64,000 bases of DNA, from NCBI GenBank assembly GCA_945868845.1, contig CAMBMS010000001.1, positions 124,001-188,000 on the forward strand, in the 5' to 3' direction. How positions within the stretch are numbered: position 1 is the stretch's first letter; the number at the start of each line of letters is the position of its first letter. This document shows positions 7,515-19,370 of the stretch, piece after piece. This DNA comes from Asaia bogorensis. Its GTDB lineage: Bacteria > Pseudomonadota > Alphaproteobacteria > Acetobacterales > Acetobacteraceae. The notes under the pieces were generated by a model. The model saw only the letters and a program-made list of their open reading frames with translations, did no database searches and had not been told where the DNA came from. The position numbers were made by a program, and so were the translations under genes.

Positions 7515-8393
7515 ATGGCCACCACCACCTTCAACGTGGGAAACATCACCATCCACCGCATCGTGGAGCAGGAAGGCGGCTTCTTCGATCCGCTCACCTT
7601 CTTCCCCTCGCTCACGCCGGAACTGCTGGCGGAAAACAAGCGATGGATGACCGAGGGCGGCTACCTGGACAAGGATGGCAATATTGTCCTCTGCATCCAG
7701 GCCTATCTAGTGCAGACGCCGCACCACAACATCCTGGTCGATAGCTGCGTGGGCAACGACAAGCCGCGCGCCTCCCGCCCGTTTTGGGACAAGCTGAAAC
7801 TCGATACATTCCAGAAGAACCTCGCCGCCACCGGCGTCACCATGGACAAGATCGACTATGTGATGTGCACGCACCTGCACGTCGATCATGTCGGCTGGAA
7901 CACGCGGCTGGAAAACGGCCAATGGGTGCCCAGCTTCGCCAACGCCAAATATTTATTCGCCGAGGATGAGCTGGCATACTGGGTCGAGCAAGAAAAAAAA
8001 GACCCCGCCAATCACGGCCCCATCACCGACTCTGTCCTGCCCATCATCGCTGCCAAGAAGGAACAGGTGGTCAAAAGCGATTTCGAACTGAACGACATCG
8101 TGAAACTGATCCCGACGCCGGGCCACACGATCGATCATTACTCCGTGCAGGTCGGCAAGCCCGGCGCGGACGCGGTGATCACCGGGGACATGATCCACTC
8201 CCCCTTACAGGCAAAATACCCTGACCTCGGCATGCGCGCGGACTATAACTCCCCGCAGGCCGGCAAATCACGAAGAGAATTGTTCTCCTGCCTATGCGAA
8301 ACCTCCACGCTGGTTTGCACCGCGCATTTCCCTTCGCCCTCCTCGGGGCACATGAAGCGGGATGGCAATGCGTTCCGGTTCGAGCAGGTTTAG
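7515..8393 (+). CDS. MBL-fold metallo-hydrolase
   Basis: The 292-residue protein belongs to the metallo-beta-lactamase superfamily. It shows the di-metal motif THLHVDHVGW (HxHxDH, near residue 118), a second-metal His in PTPGHTIDHYS, the bridging Asp in ITGDMIHSP and a late His in CTAHFPSPSSGH. No signal peptide is seen, so it is likely cytosolic. AGGGGGAA precedes the ATG. Many such proteins hydrolyse lactones, thioesters or organophosphate-type esters; the substrate cannot be set from sequence. Confidence 0.87.
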   Translation: MATTTFNVGNITIHRIVEQEGGFFDPLTFFPSLTPELLAENKRWMTEGGYLDKDGNIVLCIQAYLVQTPHHNILVDSCVGNDKPRASRPFWDKLKLDTFQKNLAATGVTMDKIDYVMCTHLHVDHVGWNTRLENGQWVPSFANAKYLFAEDELAYWVEQEKKDPANHGPITDSVLPIIAAKKEQVVKSDFELNDIVKLIPTPGHTIDHYSVQVGKPGADAVITGDMIHSPLQAKYPDLGMRADYNSPQAGKSRRELFSCLCETSTLVCTAHFPSPSSGHMKRDGNAFRFEQV

Positions 8394-13250: not shown

Positions 13251-13907
13251 TTAACGGTCATCGACCGGCAAATGGGCCTGCACCGAGGGCCTCATATTAA
13301 ACGCTTCATGCCATGCCGTCAGTTTCGGATTTCCGTCGCGCCAGTTCAATTCGGCAAAGCGGAAATCGAGATAGGCCAGCGCAATGCCAATGCCGATATG
13401 GCCGATAGAAAACGCGCTGGCAGAAAGTGCCACCGCTTCCGCCTCCAGCGCAGGAATGCAGGCCATCAGCTTGCCGCGCCAAAGCTCCATATGCGGCTGG
13501 CTTTGCTTATCGGCCGGCCGAGAGCGCTCGCTCAGCAAAGCCAGGCTGATATCCAACATGCCATCGCCCAAGGCCAGCCAGCGCAACGCGGTGATCCGCT
13601 CCGCCCCCGCCGGAAACAGTTTCGGCCCGTGATGCAGCGTGTCTAGATATTCGCACAGCACCGGCGAATCATAGATGATCGTGCCATCCGCCAGAACGAG
13701 GGTGGGAATTTTCCCCAGCGGATTTTCTCGCATCAGCTCCAGATGCGGCGTGGTGCCACCTACCACGGTGCGCACGCAATGCAGCCGATCCTGCAAGCCC
13801 ATCTCGTGCGCCGCGATCATCACCTTGCGCACATATGGCGAGCGCGGCGACCAGTGCAGCAGCATCTTACCGGCTGGCAGTCCAGAGGGGGGGCGAGTTA
13901 CGGCCAT
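13251..13907 (-). CDS. Glutathione S-transferase family protein
   Basis: The 218-residue product has a thioredoxin-like N-domain with the SPRSPYVRKV active-site segment (catalytic Ser as in the zeta/theta-like groups), the NPLGKIPTL cis-Pro loop and DSPVLCEYLD gamma-Glu/Ser binding motif, followed by an all-helical C-domain. The start ATG has a strong AAGGAGGAG upstream; the frame is open 114 bp further but without such a site. It ends 18 bp after the SDR start, so both may share a leftward transcript. It is divergent from a CoA-transferase operon and may isomerise or conjugate a pathway intermediate. Confidence 0.88.
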   Translation of the reverse strand: MAVTRPPSGLPAGKMLLHWSPRSPYVRKVMIAAHEMGLQDRLHCVRTVVGGTTPHLELMRENPLGKIPTLVLADGTIIYDSPVLCEYLDTLHHGPKLFPAGAERITALRWLALGDGMLDISLALLSERSRPADKQSQPHMELWRGKLMACIPALEAEAVALSASAFSIGHIGIGIALAYLDFRFAELNWRDGNPKLTAWHEAFNMRPSVQAHLPVDDR

Positions 13908-14062
13908 GTCTCGTCTCCTCCTTCTTTTCGCCCTTGCCTTGTGCCAGCAAAGCCCGCCCACGGCCAGGGCCGCCGCCGCGACCCCAACCTGACTTGACCC
14001 TCCCCGGAGGGGGACGCACATTCGCCCCGCCGTACACGCCAGAAGGGCGACAGAGGAGGAAC

Positions 14063-14740
14063 ATGGCCATCGACAAACGCGTTGCCTCCGCCGCCGACGC
14101 CATGACTGGCGTGCGAAGCGGCGCCACCGTCTTCGTCTCAGGCTTCGGCGGCGCAGGCTTTCCCAACGTGCTACTGCGCGCCCTGCTGGAATGCGGCCTG
14201 AAGGATCTCACCCTGGTCGCCAATTCGGCGACGCATCGCTATTCCATCACACATGAACTGATCGCCGCCGGCATGGTTCGGCACGTCATCTGCTCCGCCG
14301 CGCGCGGCCACGACAAGGCGGACCTTTCCGCCTTCGAAAAACTCTACAAAGAGGGAAAAATCGGCCTCACGTTACTGCCGCAGGGCACCTTCGCAGAGGC
14401 CATCCGCGCCGGCGGAGCCGGCATCGGCGGCTTCTTCACCCCCGTCGGCTACGGCACCGACCTAGCTAAGGGCAAGGAAACCCGCATCATGAAGGGCCGC
14501 GAATATGTGCTGGAGGAAGCCATTACCGGCGACCTCGCGCTAGTGCGCGCCGATATCGCGGACCGCTATGGCAATCTCCACTTCCGCCACGCGCAGGCGA
14601 ATTTCGGCCAGGCGATGGCCACCGCCGCGGCACTCACCATCGCCGAAGTGCGCGAGGCTACGGAAACCCCGATGGCGCAAACCAAGATCATGCTGCCGGG
14701 CACCTATGTGGATCGCGTGGTCGCGGTAGGAACGCCATGA
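14063..14740 (+). CDS. 3-oxoacid (3-oxoadipate-type) CoA-transferase, subunit A
   Basis: The 225-residue protein is the alpha chain of a family I CoA-transferase. It has the N-terminal SGATVFVSGFGGAGFPN glycine-rich segment, LLPQGTFAE, FFTPVGYGTDLAKGKE and DRYGNLHFR, all matching PcaI/ScoA. The enzyme moves CoA from a donor such as succinyl-CoA to a 3-oxo acid. GAGGAGGA precedes the ATG at 14063; an upstream frame opens earlier but runs through the divergent promoter region. It overlaps the beta-subunit gene by 4 bp. Confidence 0.9.
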   Translation: MAIDKRVASAADAMTGVRSGATVFVSGFGGAGFPNVLLRALLECGLKDLTLVANSATHRYSITHELIAAGMVRHVICSAARGHDKADLSAFEKLYKEGKIGLTLLPQGTFAEAIRAGGAGIGGFFTPVGYGTDLAKGKETRIMKGREYVLEEAITGDLALVRADIADRYGNLHFRHAQANFGQAMATAAALTIAEVREATETPMAQTKIMLPGTYVDRVVAVGTP

Positions 14741-15426
14741 AACCCCTCAACAGATTCCAGATCGCCTGGCGCGCCGCGCAGGACATCCAGGACGGCATGC
14801 TGGTCAATCTCGGTATGGGCATCCCCGTGCTCGCCGCCGACTATGTGCCCGATGGCCGCGACGTATTCGTGCAGGCGGAAAACGGCATCATTGGCTGTGG
14901 CCCGGTGGCGTCGGCCAATGCCGCGGACCCCGATCTCGTGGACGCTTCTAGCCGCCGCGTCACCCTGCGCCCCGGCGGTTCCATTGTGGATTCGGCATCC
15001 TCCTTCGCAATGATCCGCGGGGGGCATATCGACATCACCCTGCTAGGCTGCTTCGAGGTCGCGGAGAACGGCGACATGGCGAACTGGGATAGCCGCGTGC
15101 CAGACAAGGGTCCGCTCGTCGGCGGCGCCATGGACCTCGCCGCTTGCGCCAAGGCCGTCTGGGTGCTGATGGAACACAACACCCGCCAGGGCGAGCCGCG
15201 CCTGCTGCAATGCTGCACCCTGCCGCTCACCGCCGTGCGTTGCGTCACGCGCATCTTCACCGATATCGCCGTGGTGGACGTAGCGCCGCAAGGCTTCCTG
15301 GTGCGCGAAATCCTCGATGGCATGGGCCGCGACGAATTGCAGGCGCGCACCGGCGCCACCATGCATTTTTCCGCTGATTGCGGCGTGTTGCACGCGCCGG
15401 CCTTGGCCCCTGGCCTGGAAGAATAG
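14737..15426 (+). CDS. 3-oxoacid (3-oxoadipate-type) CoA-transferase, subunit B
   Basis: The 229-residue beta chain contains LVNLGMGIPVL and the AENGIIG motif whose Glu forms the covalent CoA thioester intermediate, plus the IRGGHIDITLLG and ENGDMANW segments typical of PcaJ/ScoB. Its start overlaps the alpha-chain stop (ATGA), as expected for a 1:1 heteromer. An alpha/beta hydrolase resembling 3-oxoadipate enol-lactonase follows after 5 bp, which favours a beta-ketoadipate-like or related ring-cleavage pathway. Confidence 0.9.
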   Translation: MKPLNRFQIAWRAAQDIQDGMLVNLGMGIPVLAADYVPDGRDVFVQAENGIIGCGPVASANAADPDLVDASSRRVTLRPGGSIVDSASSFAMIRGGHIDITLLGCFEVAENGDMANWDSRVPDKGPLVGGAMDLAACAKAVWVLMEHNTRQGEPRLLQCCTLPLTAVRCVTRIFTDIAVVDVAPQGFLVREILDGMGRDELQARTGATMHFSADCGVLHAPALAPGLEE

Positions 15427-15431
15427 CCGCC

Positions 15432-16223
15432 ATGGACTGGATCGACGTCAACGGCACCGGCCTGCGCTATGAACTTTCCGGCGACGGGCCGAAAACCCTG
15501 GTGCTGGTGCACGAAATGGGCGGCAGCCTGGAAAGTTGGGACCAGGTGATGCCCATCCTGCAACCGGGCAGGCGCATCCTGCGCTATGACTGGCGCGGTT
15601 CTGGCATGAGCGAGAAGGCCCGCTCGAGGCTCGATTTCGACCTGATGGCGGAAGATCTCGCCGCGCTGCTGGACGCGAAATCCATCACGCAACGCTTCGC
15701 CATCGTCGGCTGCGCGGTGGGCGCCGGAATTTCGCTCCGCTTCACCTGCCGTTTCCCCACGCGCGTCGGCGCCGTGGTGGCGATGGCAGCCGCCACCGGC
15801 ATCACCGAGGACAAGCGCGAAGCGATGCTGAACCGTATCATGCGTATGGAACGCGAAGGCCCGCGCGCCCTGAACGAGGAAGCCTTCGCGGCCTCCTATC
15901 CCCCAGAGGTGCAGCACAATATGGAAGAGTTCCGCAAATTTCGTGCCCGCTGGCTCGGCAACGACCCTAACAGCTACGCCATGATCAATCGCATGCTGCT
16001 GGATACCCGCATCGAGGACAGATTCGGCGAGATCGATTGTCCGACCCTGGTACTAGCCGGCAAACACGACAAAGCCCGCTCGCCCGAGGTGGTGGCAGCA
16101 GTGGCAAAGCTGATTCCCCGCGCGGACTACCGGGAAGTGGATAGCGGGCATTTCATGGCGGTGCAGACCCCGATATTGATCGCGGAGACAATCAACCGGT
16201 TTCTGGCTTCGTCCGGCTACTGA
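15432..16223 (+). CDS. Alpha/beta hydrolase (enol-lactonase-like) lacking the usual Ser
   Basis: The 263-residue protein has the alpha/beta-hydrolase fold of 3-oxoadipate enol-lactonase (PcaD) proteins: oxyanion segment VHEMGGS, RYDWRGSGMS, acid LAGKHD (D213) and DSGHFM (H240). The nucleophile elbow reads G93-C-A-V-G97, so the G-x-Nu-x-G position is Ala95 instead of Ser, with Cys94 next to it. Either Cys94 or another group acts, or the enzyme does not form an acyl intermediate. It follows the CoA-transferase pair by 5 bp and is followed by an SDR after 25 bp, so it is part of that operon. Confidence 0.82.
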   Translation: MDWIDVNGTGLRYELSGDGPKTLVLVHEMGGSLESWDQVMPILQPGRRILRYDWRGSGMSEKARSRLDFDLMAEDLAALLDAKSITQRFAIVGCAVGAGISLRFTCRFPTRVGAVVAMAAATGITEDKREAMLNRIMRMEREGPRALNEEAFAASYPPEVQHNMEEFRKFRARWLGNDPNSYAMINRMLLDTRIEDRFGEIDCPTLVLAGKHDKARSPEVVAAVAKLIPRADYREVDSGHFMAVQTPILIAETINRFLASSGY

Positions 16224-16248: not shown

Positions 16249-17160
16249 ATGGGCTTATTGGATGGCAAGGTCGCGATCGTCACCGGCTCCGGCCGAGGTA
16301 TCGGACGCGCGATGGCACTGGAAATGGCGAAGGCCGGCGCCAAGGTCGTGGTCAATGACGTGGGCGCAGCGGTGTCAGGTGAAGGTCATGACGATGGGCC
16401 AGCGATGCAAGTAGTGAAGGAAATTGATTCACTCTATGGCCAGGGCACGGCGGTCGCAAATACTGATAGCGTAGCGGAATGGGATGCCGCACAGCGCATC
16501 GTGCAGACCGCGATCAGCAAGTTCGGCCGCGTCGATATCGTGGTCAACAATGCCGGTATTTTGCGCGACCGCATGTTTCATTACATGACGCCGGAGGAAT
16601 GGGACGCGGTGATCAAGGTGCACCTCTACGGTGCCTTCTATGTTTCCCGCGCTGCCATCCCGCATTTCCGCAAGCAGCTTTCCGGCGCGTATGTGCACAT
16701 GACTTCCACCTCCGGCCTGATTGGCAGCGTGGGGCAAACCAATTATGCGGCGGCGAAGCTCGGCATCGCCGGTCTGTCGCGCTCCATCGCCATGGACATG
16801 CAGCGCTACAATGTGCGCTCCAACTGCATCGGCCCCCATGCTTTCAGCCGGATGATCGAGAGCATCCCGGGCACACCGCCGGAAGTGCTTGAGGAGCGTG
16901 CCCGCAAGACACGGCCAGACCAGGTGGCAATCCTGGCTACCTTCCTTGTCTCCGACGCCGCGAAGGACTTTTCCGGCCAGATTCTTGGCGCGCGCGGTAA
17001 TGAGGTTTACCTCTATAACCAACCCCGCCCGATCCGGGTGCTGCATCGTTCCGAAGGTTGGACCCCGGACGCAATGGCGGAAGCCCTGCCTGGCGCGTTC
17101 AAAACCAGCCTGACACCGCTGGAACGCACCCGCGATGTCTATGCATGGGAAGCGGTTTAA
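16249..17160 (+). CDS. SDR oxidoreductase, MFE-type hydroxyacyl-CoA dehydrogenase-like
   Basis: The 303-residue SDR has TGSGRGIGRA, a characteristic NDVGAAVSGEG insert, NNAGILRDRMF, Ser in TSTSG, and YAAAK. The insert and the long C-terminal tail match the SDR domain of peroxisomal multifunctional enzyme-2 and bacterial relatives that oxidise (3R)-hydroxyacyl-CoA. ATG at 16249 is chosen; a TTG precedes it directly. Being last in the CoA-transferase operon, it likely acts on a CoA-linked hydroxy intermediate. Confidence 0.85.
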   Translation: MGLLDGKVAIVTGSGRGIGRAMALEMAKAGAKVVVNDVGAAVSGEGHDDGPAMQVVKEIDSLYGQGTAVANTDSVAEWDAAQRIVQTAISKFGRVDIVVNNAGILRDRMFHYMTPEEWDAVIKVHLYGAFYVSRAAIPHFRKQLSGAYVHMTSTSGLIGSVGQTNYAAAKLGIAGLSRSIAMDMQRYNVRSNCIGPHAFSRMIESIPGTPPEVLEERARKTRPDQVAILATFLVSDAAKDFSGQILGARGNEVYLYNQPRPIRVLHRSEGWTPDAMAEALPGAFKTSLTPLERTRDVYAWEAV

Positions 17161-17174
17161 TTTTGCCGCCATCT

Positions 17175-17215
17175 AAAATCCAGCCTGGCACGTAAAACCG
17201 TGCTGGGATTTTTTC
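17175..17215 (+). terminator. Rho-independent terminator after the CoA-transferase operon
   Basis: AAATCC...GCACG, loop TAAAAC, CGTGC...GGATTT followed by TTTTC forms a stem (with an internal loop) 15 bp after the SDR stop on the plus strand. The U-tract is on the plus strand, so it ends the rightward operon. Confidence 0.72.
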
Positions 17216-17311: not shown

Positions 17312-18085
17312 TCAGCGGCCAGTAAATATTGGCTTCCGCTTTTCTTTGAACGCGGCGACGCCTTCGGCGTGGTCGGTGGTCTGGTTCAACTGCGGCTGCA
17401 CCATGGATTCCATTTCCAGGTAATCCTCCAGGCTCGGGCCATCGGCGATATTGAACAATTTCTTCGACAACCCCAGCGCGTAAGTCGGTCCAATCGCGAA
17501 TTGTCGCGCCATTTCCGTGGCTCGTGCCAAAGCCTCGCCCTCCGACGTCATGTGGTTGGCAATACCGAGTTTTACCGCCTCCTCTGCCCCCACGAAGCGA
17601 CCGCCATAGACCAGTTCCTTGGCGAGCGGCGTGCCGATGCGCCGCGACAAAAACCAGATTCCGCCACCATCCGGCGCCAGGCCGATACGCTGGAACACCT
17701 GGGCGAAACGCGCCGTGGCGCCAACCACCATCATGTCACAGGCCATAGCGATGGACATGCCGATACCGACAGCCACACCCTCCACTGCTGCGATCACGGG
17801 CTTTTCGATATTGTGCAGCACACGGATATAGCCGTGGCTGCCCGATTGCAGCATCTGCCGCGCCTTTCGCAAATCCCGCCCACCCATATTCCCGACATCG
17901 GCGCCGGAACAGAACGACCCGCCCGCACCGGTCACCACGATTGCGCGAATGTCATCGTTGAAGCGCAGTTCGGTGAAATATTTCGTCAGCAACTGACGCA
18001 TCTCCCAGGTCAGCGCGTTCTTCCGCTCCGGGCGGTTGATCACCACTGTGGCAATGGGCTTGTCGATGATCAGCTCGATGGTCAT
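17312..18085 (-). CDS. Crotonase-family protein, isomerase-like active site
   Basis: The 257-residue enoyl-CoA hydratase/isomerase-fold protein has the oxyanion segment AGGSFCSGAD and VGIGMSIAMACD. The two hydratase glutamates (rat Glu144 and Glu164) align with Ser and Phe, while an Asp appears in LAPDGGG, the pattern seen in PaaG-type isomerases. A ring or double-bond isomerisation is therefore more likely than hydration. The start has GGGAGG upstream; a longer frame begins 135 bp earlier with unlikely sequence. It is divergent from the CaiB/BaiF gene, so both probably serve one CoA-linked route. Confidence 0.87.
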   Translation of the reverse strand: MTIELIIDKPIATVVINRPERKNALTWEMRQLLTKYFTELRFNDDIRAIVVTGAGGSFCSGADVGNMGGRDLRKARQMLQSGSHGYIRVLHNIEKPVIAAVEGVAVGIGMSIAMACDMMVVGATARFAQVFQRIGLAPDGGGIWFLSRRIGTPLAKELVYGGRFVGAEEAVKLGIANHMTSEGEALARATEMARQFAIGPTYALGLSKKLFNIADGPSLEDYLEMESMVQPQLNQTTDHAEGVAAFKEKRKPIFTGR

Positions 18086-18179
18086 GCACGTTCCTCCCGG
18101 GTTGGGAGGAGTGTGCGGCGGGACTTGAAATTTTTCCAGCCTGGGCGGCAAGATGGCAAAAATATCTGGGGGAATTTCT

Positions 18180-19370
18180 ATGACGCGCGCCTTCGAAGGC
18201 ATCAAGGTGGTGGATATCACGCATGTTCTGGCCGGCCCCTTCGCGGCCTACCAGCTCGCCGTGCAGGGCGCGGACGTGATCAAGGTGGAGCACCCAGGCG
18301 ACCCGGATCAAAGTCGCGGCAGCGGAACGGACCGGCAATTGAACGACACGGATATGGGAACGGGTTTTTTGACCCAGGCCTCCAACAAGCGTTCCATCAC
18401 GCTGGATCTGAAAACTCCGACTGGCGTGGAAATTTTTAAAAAATTAATCACAGGCGCGGATGTTCTGGTGGAAAATTACCGCCCCGGCGCGTTCGAGGCT
18501 TTGGGACTCGGCTATGAAACTCTCGCGGTCCTCAACCCGCGCCTGATTTATTGTTCGATCAGCGCGTTCGGACAAGGCGGGCCACGTGGACAGATGACGG
18601 CGTACGACCATGTGATCCAGTCCACCTCGGGGATCATGGCGACGACCGGGACGGCGGACGTTAGCCCCATAAAATTTGGCTCGCCCGTGATCGATTATGC
18701 CACCGGGACGATGGCAGCATTTGCACTGGCATCCGCGCTGTTCCAACGCGAACGCAAGGGCATGGGGCAACGTATCGACCTTGCGATGCTGGATGTGGCG
18801 ATGATGATGATGTCAAGCCACATCAGCGGTTATCTCCGCAACGGGGCGCACCCGAAGCCACATGGTAACAAGCACGCGCATGCCACCAACTCCTGTTATC
18901 AGACGAAGGATGGCCTGGTCATGCTAGGTGCCAGCAATCTGCGCCAGCAGGCACGGCTATGGCGGGCCCTAGGGCGCGAGGACATGGTGAAAAAAACTAA
19001 CTACGAACGCGATGACGACCATGCGCGCGAGGAAAAATTACTGGAAGACGTTCTCCTAACCAAGACCGCGGATGAGTGGGAAGAATTTCTTCAATCGCGC
19101 CATGTGCCGGCCTCGCGGGTGCGGCAATTACGCGAGACCATCGCTGATCCACATCTCGCGACTCGCGGTGTGCTGCATCGTTTTCCAGATGGCGCGCCTG
19201 GGGTTGCGGGCGCATTCGGCGTGCCGATGGCAGCCTTCAAGTTCGCGCACGGCACGCCGCGCATCGACACACCGCCCCCGCGTTTCGGTGAACATAATGA
19301 TGCGGTTCTGGCGGAACTGGGATATTCCGCCGGCGACATATCTGGCTTCCGGGCGGCGAAAGTAATTTGA
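18180..19370 (+). CDS. CaiB/BaiF (family III) CoA-transferase
   Basis: The 396-residue protein is a family III CoA-transferase. The N-terminus has the LAGPFAAYQLAVQGADVIKVE Rossmann segment split by GDPDQSR, followed by NKRSITLDLK, VLVENYRPGA and the YDHVIQSTSG and VIDYATG regions; an Asp of this type carries the acyl group in characterised members. GGGGGAA lies 6 nt before the ATG at 18180. The family transfers CoA between carboxylic acids in degradation of carnitine, oxalate, aromatics and others; the substrate is not evident. Confidence 0.9.
   Translation: MTRAFEGIKVVDITHVLAGPFAAYQLAVQGADVIKVEHPGDPDQSRGSGTDRQLNDTDMGTGFLTQASNKRSITLDLKTPTGVEIFKKLITGADVLVENYRPGAFEALGLGYETLAVLNPRLIYCSISAFGQGGPRGQMTAYDHVIQSTSGIMATTGTADVSPIKFGSPVIDYATGTMAAFALASALFQRERKGMGQRIDLAMLDVAMMMMSSHISGYLRNGAHPKPHGNKHAHATNSCYQTKDGLVMLGASNLRQQARLWRALGREDMVKKTNYERDDDHAREEKLLEDVLLTKTADEWEEFLQSRHVPASRVRQLRETIADPHLATRGVLHRFPDGAPGVAGAFGVPMAAFKFAHGTPRIDTPPPRFGEHNDAVLAELGYSAGDISGFRAAKVI

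Follow-up and report, generated by a model that had tools for sequence, protein, structure and literature searches.

An alpha/beta-hydrolase encoded in a 64,000-nucleotide window of Asaia bogorensis (the window being the whole stretch of DNA that was analysed) has alanine at the position of the nucleophile and is, on balance, probably a working PcaD-like enzyme that lacks an elbow nucleophile and relies on non-covalent base catalysis. Nucleophile-less alpha/beta-hydrolases such as RutD, AqdC, and MKS1 are already known, and the clade of the window protein is a further variant of them. Serine-hydrolase folds that have lost the Ser and kept the base represent natural cases in which an old scaffold has taken on another type of reaction. 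The clade of the window protein keeps a defined set of replacements (A95, E28, and R216), adjoins a Ser-bearing relative in Massilia, and has members that are small enough to assay. A literature search at the level of titles and abstracts found nothing on this subfamily. The locus contains the following features:

13251-14021, minus strand: divergent GST-like protein with GST_N/GST_C domains, start probably too long; nearest model PRK10357 (89.6 bits, below the cutoff of 181)
14066-14740, plus strand: 3-oxoacid CoA-transferase subunit A (TIGR02429, 238.3 bits, cutoff 128.5)
14737-15426, plus strand: 3-oxoacid CoA-transferase subunit B (TIGR02428, 260.9 bits, cutoff 243.55), with an ENG motif
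15432-16223, plus strand: Ala-elbow alpha/beta-hydrolase, 263 aa, with A95 at the nucleophile position, H240 as putative base, D213 as putative acid, E28 in the oxyanion loop, and R216 after the acid
15708-15722, plus strand: elbow codons G93-C94-A95-V96-G97
16249-17160, plus strand: SDR oxidoreductase, 303 aa when counted from its ATG, which closes the apparent operon; nearest model PRK07791 (266 bits, below the cutoff of 373)
17184-17207, plus strand: terminator-like stem-loop after the SDR gene, nine pairs and a T-rich tail; a weak candidate, as the region has four such sites against a shuffled mean of 3.1

The hydrolase gene is a single open frame, and its translation contains the elbow V92-G93-C94-A95-V96-G97, the acid within G-K-H-D213, and the base within S238-G-H240. 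The original prediction had described a GCAVG elbow with Ala instead of Ser and with D213 and H240 present, which is borne out by the translation, codon 95 being GCG. The clean frame, the same residue in homologs of many genomes, and a control protein with a GCSIG elbow (see below) count against sequencing error or chance as the source of A95.

The homologs were compared in an alignment of 82 rows, comprising 50 rows of the window clade, 25 rows of a PcaD-like clade with a Ser elbow (the Ser clade), six rows of a paralog group, and E. coli RutD. Several entries were dropped before the counts, including L002 (the same protein as L019), the fragments L005 and L008, the window itself (L009 and L063), and L069 and L072, which gave no match passing the length filter and both read GLSLGG; the distant Ser-elbow proteins L006 and L007 were used as outgroup only and are not counted. 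Position 95 of the window clade is occupied by Ala in 48 rows and by Gly in two; the other rows have Ser in the 25 PcaD-like sequences and Ala in all six paralogs and E. coli RutD. An alignment of homologs had been proposed as a check on the prediction, and it makes the elbow Ala (or Gly) a conserved trait of the subfamily, present in 50/50 clade rows. Ser in nearly all close homologs, which had been named as the outcome that would speak against the idea, is the opposite of what was found, with Ser in none of the 50.

Other positions are similarly constant. E28, R216, and H240 are each present in all 50 clade rows, and D213 in 48, with Asn in the other two. These two rows (L003 and L004, both Betaproteobacteria MAGs) are the same ones that carry Gly95, and their Asn indicates that the Asp is not strictly needed. 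When both Ala groups are pooled (56 rows), H240 and E28 are each found in 56, D213 in 54, and the nucleophile is absent from all. The E28 column contains Glu in 50/50 clade and 6/6 paralog rows as opposed to Ser in 20/25 rows of the Ser clade, and the R216 column has Arg in 50/50 clade rows, Thr in 22/25 rows of the Ser clade, and Trp in 6/6 paralogs. The clade is further distinguished by R12, G31, S35, K62, P120, Y156, R173, M188, and C203, the window protein itself having Ala at P120. At the level of sequence, the loss of Ser goes together with other changes that are likewise fixed; by the usual layout of the fold, several of these would lie in loops around the active site. L123, a clade member that is not part of the count, shares the HEMGG, GAALG, RPP, and GHVM stretches. 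In two plasmid-borne members (L097, 6001-6783, and L094, 8001-8780), the first elbow Gly is also replaced (VAAAAG and VSLAAG), which indicates a further relaxation of the elbow in the plasmid branch.

It had also been suggested that Cys94 may act in place of the missing Ser. Cys is found at position 94 in just 10 of the 50 clade rows, the others having I, V, A, N, T, M, or L and, in one case, a gap, which rules out Cys94 as the nucleophile. No other Ser, Thr, or Cys is conserved at positions 90-101 of the clade alignment. Outside this stretch, S35 and S60 are each conserved in 49/50 clade rows, S60 being conserved in the Ser clade as well.

The Ala-elbow gene is maintained under purifying selection and is not decaying. 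In 10 pairs of clade members, dN/dS ranges from 0.10 to 0.24 (NG86; the set is without the coding sequences of L003, L079, and L080, and the pair L003/L004 is not included). Codon 95 varies synonymously, with GCC in 27, GCG in 18, and GCT in three of 49 readable rows, in addition to one GGC. Together with the Ala or Gly in the homologs, the dN/dS values rule out a loss-of-function allele or a sequencing error.

With regard to known families, the window protein is a member of Abhydrolase_1 (Pfam, 86.6 bits, cutoff 25.8), but it scores 126.6 bits against the PcaD model TIGR02427, whose equivalog cutoff is 255.85, and 72 bits against the RutD model TIGR03611, whose equivalog cutoff is 238.5 and for which the E. 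coli RutD control scores 411. Filing the protein as PcaD or RutD is ruled out because both cutoffs are missed. A protein annotated as PcaD on a Thioclava plasmid, whose gene lies among pcaC, pcaH, pcaG, and a cycloisomerase gene, served as a control; it has the elbow GCSIG, scores 272.8 bits, and shares 33% identity with the window protein over 243 columns, showing that an elbow nearly identical to that of the window protein does not keep a PcaD from passing. PcaD resembles the window protein in fold and length and in the 3-oxoacid CoA-transferase genes that are neighbours in the window; unlike the window protein, it has the Ser nucleophile in GxSxG that is here replaced by A95, and its clade mostly has Ser and Thr at the places of E28 and R216. 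The earlier description of the protein as enol-lactonase-like holds for its fold and nearest family (PcaD 2xua, TIGR02427) and does not extend to membership, given the PcaD score. E. coli RutD (PDB 3v48) also has an Ala elbow (GHALG) and retains Asp and His, a combination that the window protein shares in the comparison with this one RutD sequence, but the two are 26% identical over 143 residues (BLASTP), and RutD belongs to a pyrimidine operon and has Gly and Val at the places of E28 and R216, respectively.

Two further systems are likened by description, not by sequence. The elbow residue of MKS1, a plant enzyme from tomato, is Ala. As described in PMC10548524, MKS1 decarboxylates beta-keto acids on an alpha/beta-hydrolase fold that lacks the canonical triad and keeps the His as base, whereas it differs from the window protein in its plant origin and in the help of a neighbouring Thr. 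The same source describes HOD, QDO, and AqdC as enzymes in which the nucleophile is not essential, His-Asp deprotonates the substrate as a general base, and Ala is natural at the AqdC elbow; they differ from the window protein in the place of the acid in the sequence and in their heteroaromatic substrates. The feature common to these enzymes, a missing nucleophile with the His kept across a subfamily, is also found here (Ser in 0/50 and His in 50/50 clade rows).

An AlphaFold2 model built from 24 subfamily rows has a mean pLDDT of 94.7 and a pTM of 0.93. Its best PDB match among those listed is PcaD 2xua (Foldseek 1.3e-22; VIA Z 37.1, rmsd 1.5, 255 residues, 25% identity), followed by esterases and haloperoxidases. 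No row named MKS1 occurs among the matches listed, comprising 50 fold-comparison rows and 60 rows of a further list. The strand-turn-helix of the elbow is retained in the model (strand 89-94, helix 96-107), and strand 205-210 precedes D213. By the usual anatomy of the fold, we take the oxyanion hole to be formed by the backbone N of M29 and V96; the placement of E28 and R216 relative to H240 is what we infer from sequence.

Since the nucleophile is absent, an acyl-enzyme at the elbow is excluded by sequence, and the kept His, mostly accompanied by Asp, suggests that catalysis uses a general base, as PMC10548524 reports for HOD/AqdC and MKS1. Acting on either the substrate or water, H240 would most likely serve as this base, with D213 polarising it. 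The vacated elbow and the oxyanion hole may hold an enolate, a carboxylate, or water, and the clade-specific E28 and R216 could bind or protonate a charged substrate, with no acyl-enzyme expected at the elbow. The original prediction that there may be no covalent acyl step is supported at the elbow by the conserved Ala or Gly, by purifying selection, and by His in 50/50 and Asp in 48/50 rows, and its alternative, Cys94, is the part that did not stand. 3-Oxoacid CoA-transferase, GST-like, lactonase-like, and beta-keto-acid-cleavage genes near several members make beta-keto or vinylogous acids, which would arise after opening of a ring or lactone, the likeliest substrates. The likeliest reaction would be C-C cleavage or decarboxylation, which in the window might yield a 3-oxoacid that is then activated by the CoA-transferase.

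It should be considered that a conserved non-catalytic role would likewise preserve the fold, which is a point against base catalysis. Ndr-type proteins are an example of an alpha/beta-hydrolase fold kept without catalysis, and the window protein could similarly be a pseudoenzyme or sensor that retains the fold for binding a ligand or partner; the nucleophile is missing in all 56 rows of the two Ala groups, and there is a weak match to Ndr (21.5 bits, below the cutoff of 23.3). However, mere binding does not need the H240 kept in 56/56 and the D213 kept in 54/56 of these rows, the gene lies inside apparent catabolic operons, and RutD, which shares the Ala-Asp-His set, carries an enzyme annotation, albeit a putative one, all of which makes the loss of catalysis unlikely. 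There is also a small chance that the nucleophile has been displaced, with E28 attacking the substrate to give a mixed anhydride or ester. E28 is the sole acidic residue among the listed clade-specific positions, and the contrast between Glu in both Ala groups and Ser in most of the Ser clade would agree with such a role, but a distant protein of the same genome, L014, has HE in addition to a normal Ser elbow, indicating that Glu and Ser can coexist.

The Ala-Asp-His set shared with E. coli RutD and the similar loops of the two proteins (GLGGS and EMGGS) would fit a RutD-like reaction, in which water activated by His-Asp hydrolyses or deaminates an enamine or carbamate-type intermediate; the score and identity given above stand against it, inspection of the examined loci by eye revealed no rut genes, and we regard this reaction as very improbable. 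Even less probable is a cofactor-free dioxygenase like AqdC in which the Ala elbow holds O2. Its appeal comes from the natural Ala of AqdC and from simulations in which HOD S101A kept O2 at the site for longer (PMC10548524). Yet the same source pairs the HOD His with D126, 25 residues after S101 and presumably after another strand, whereas D213 here follows strand 205-210; in addition, the best PDB matches among those listed are PcaD, esterases, and haloperoxidases, and inspection by eye showed no quinolone genes. Non-covalent base catalysis at H240 is the reading that we prefer.

The genes around the hydrolase provide a view of its possible pathway. An operon with a two-subunit CoA-transferase and an SDR had been predicted, and it is confirmed by the overlap of the CoA-transferase A and B genes and by the short spacing of the others, as the hydrolase starts five bases after B and the ATG of the SDR gene is at 16249. 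The Glu of the ENG motif in subunit B is presumably catalytic. No sigma-70-type promoter match was found in the scanned region of the locus. The subfamily may hydrolyse C-C bonds in, or decarboxylate, beta-diketo or beta-keto acids in a non-covalent manner; in this scheme it works via E28 and H240 in a serine-hydrolase site that has been emptied, and forms, with the GST-like protein and the CoA-transferase, an undescribed ring-cleavage route of isomerisation, C-C cleavage, CoA transfer, and thiolysis, a detailed scheme that we consider distinctly unlikely. The isomerase step in particular is speculative because the GST-like neighbour scores 28.2 bits against the maleylacetoacetate isomerase model TIGR01262, below the cutoff of 171.05. 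The nearest MBL match to the hydrolase in its own genome lies at 7536-8387 (plus strand) of the window, 7 kb upstream; this MBL-fold protein is 33% identical to the MBL neighbour of the relatives (E 1.5e-40). Downstream, an enoyl-CoA hydratase-like ORF (17312-18220, minus strand) and a CaiB-type CoA-transferase ORF (18153-19370, plus strand) are divergent with overlapping listed starts, one or both of which are probably too long.

Of the 21 matching genomes of the order search, own genome included, 15 have a GST-like match no more than 3 kb from the hydrolase, and in 14 the genome's best GST match is this close; an MBL-fold match is found at this distance in eight. The background per genome is two to five GST-like and two to ten MBL matches (E 1e-15). 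As the query proteins for GST and MBL came from such loci, these counts represent conserved adjacency, not unbiased enrichment. Two of the MBL examples score 73.8 and 203.1 bits against the AidB lactonase, both below the cutoff of 360. A gene-call survey counted 30 of 39 loci with a called hydrolase and considered neighbours within six genes, in single-linkage clusters that were not each checked. The loci L122 and L123 come from a single contig. The neighbours in the 30 loci were MBL (12 loci), GST-like (10), CoA-transferase B (7) and A (6), TTT substrate-binding protein (7), SDR (6), LysR (5), the CMD family (4), and enoyl-CoA hydratase-like proteins (4).

Individual loci add to this picture. 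TTT (tricarboxylate transport) genes flank the hydrolase gene on an Aminobacter plasmid, where genes of an MBL, an EthD-type, and a beta-keto-acid cleavage enzyme are also near it, and thiolase, CoA ester lyase, acyl-CoA dehydrogenase, and MBL genes surround it on plasmids of Paracoccus, where there is also a GST, and of Pseudomonas luteola, where CoA-transferase A/B are present. A GMC oxidoreductase, a Ser homolog, and a CMD gene surround the hydrolase on a Massilia plasmid; the Ser homolog (GVSMG) scores 240.9 bits for PcaD, just below 255.85, and its presence in the same gene cluster suggests that it and the Ala protein do different jobs. Within the genus of genome G584, a CMD-family gene adjoins the hydrolase in one locus (L120), and an amidohydrolase nearest to 4-sulfomuconolactone hydrolase (219.9 bits, cutoff 500) is two ORFs off in another (L121). 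These neighbours share a link to lactone opening, to beta-keto acids, and to CoA chemistry, and, as the partners vary by branch, the members may differ in substrate. The GST-like gene, the CoA-transferase, and MBL-fold proteins recur as partners and would place the hydrolase, with its probably different, non-covalent chemistry, on a catabolic route for organic acids. Given that the plasmid records examined name the hydrolase only as an alpha/beta (fold) hydrolase and that the nearest family models are enol-lactonases, current annotation may assign the wrong chemistry.

The clade has a patchy distribution in Alpha- and Betaproteobacteria, plus a plasmid of P. luteola. A genome contig search yielded eight loci, consisting of four full-length clade members, two fragments, and two distant Ser-elbow proteins. 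Matches were found in 21 of 299 genomes of the order, own included (E 1e-30), in 79 of 398 genomes in a profile search of the phylum, own included (1e-35), and in 19 of 117 genomes from the G584 genus (1e-55); most of the phylum loci examined (L063-L092) were Ser-type PcaD-like proteins. Eight of 72,556 plasmid records matched (1e-20), of which six were examined (all but H5 and H7), giving five Ala-type proteins, including two whose elbow is altered further, and one Ser control (H8). In the class of G617, which we take to be Gammaproteobacteria in the GTDB sense, none of 369 genomes matched (E 1e-50) in a set without a positive control; considering this and the plasmid relatives in Massilia, Paraburkholderia, and P. 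luteola, the clade should be regarded as rare, not absent, in that class.

In a quick tree calculated without the trait columns, the 50-row clade falls on one side of a branch with SH-aLRT 94, and a second quick tree of 38 clade rows plus outgroup rows gave the same split (SH-aLRT 96). As regards a possible shared origin of the Ala state with the W216 paralogs, the two Ala groups join with a support of 48 in the outgroup tree, where long branches are flagged, and the 25 Ser rows are not on one side of a branch there (two changes). A constraint placing the Ala_R216 and Ser clades together was not rejected (p-AU 0.214).

Other groups without the nucleophile were also observed. The paralog group, which includes L010 (own genome, C2:159244-160026, plus strand), L039-L042, and L099, has HELGGS, GAALG or GSALG, and Trp at the R216 place, and is a second Ala-elbow clade in the same bacterial family with other conserved residues. 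In addition, a GLGFG group has an HHDIG loop and Gly at the Ser place, and is represented by L018 (own genome, C37:20131-20865, minus strand), L053 (6062-6841, minus strand), and L055 (7037-7816, minus strand). Its gene adjoins an Ala-elbow gene in L053 and lies about 1 kb from one in L055, and monooxygenase-like genes (HpaB-like and flavin-type, by eye) are found nearby.
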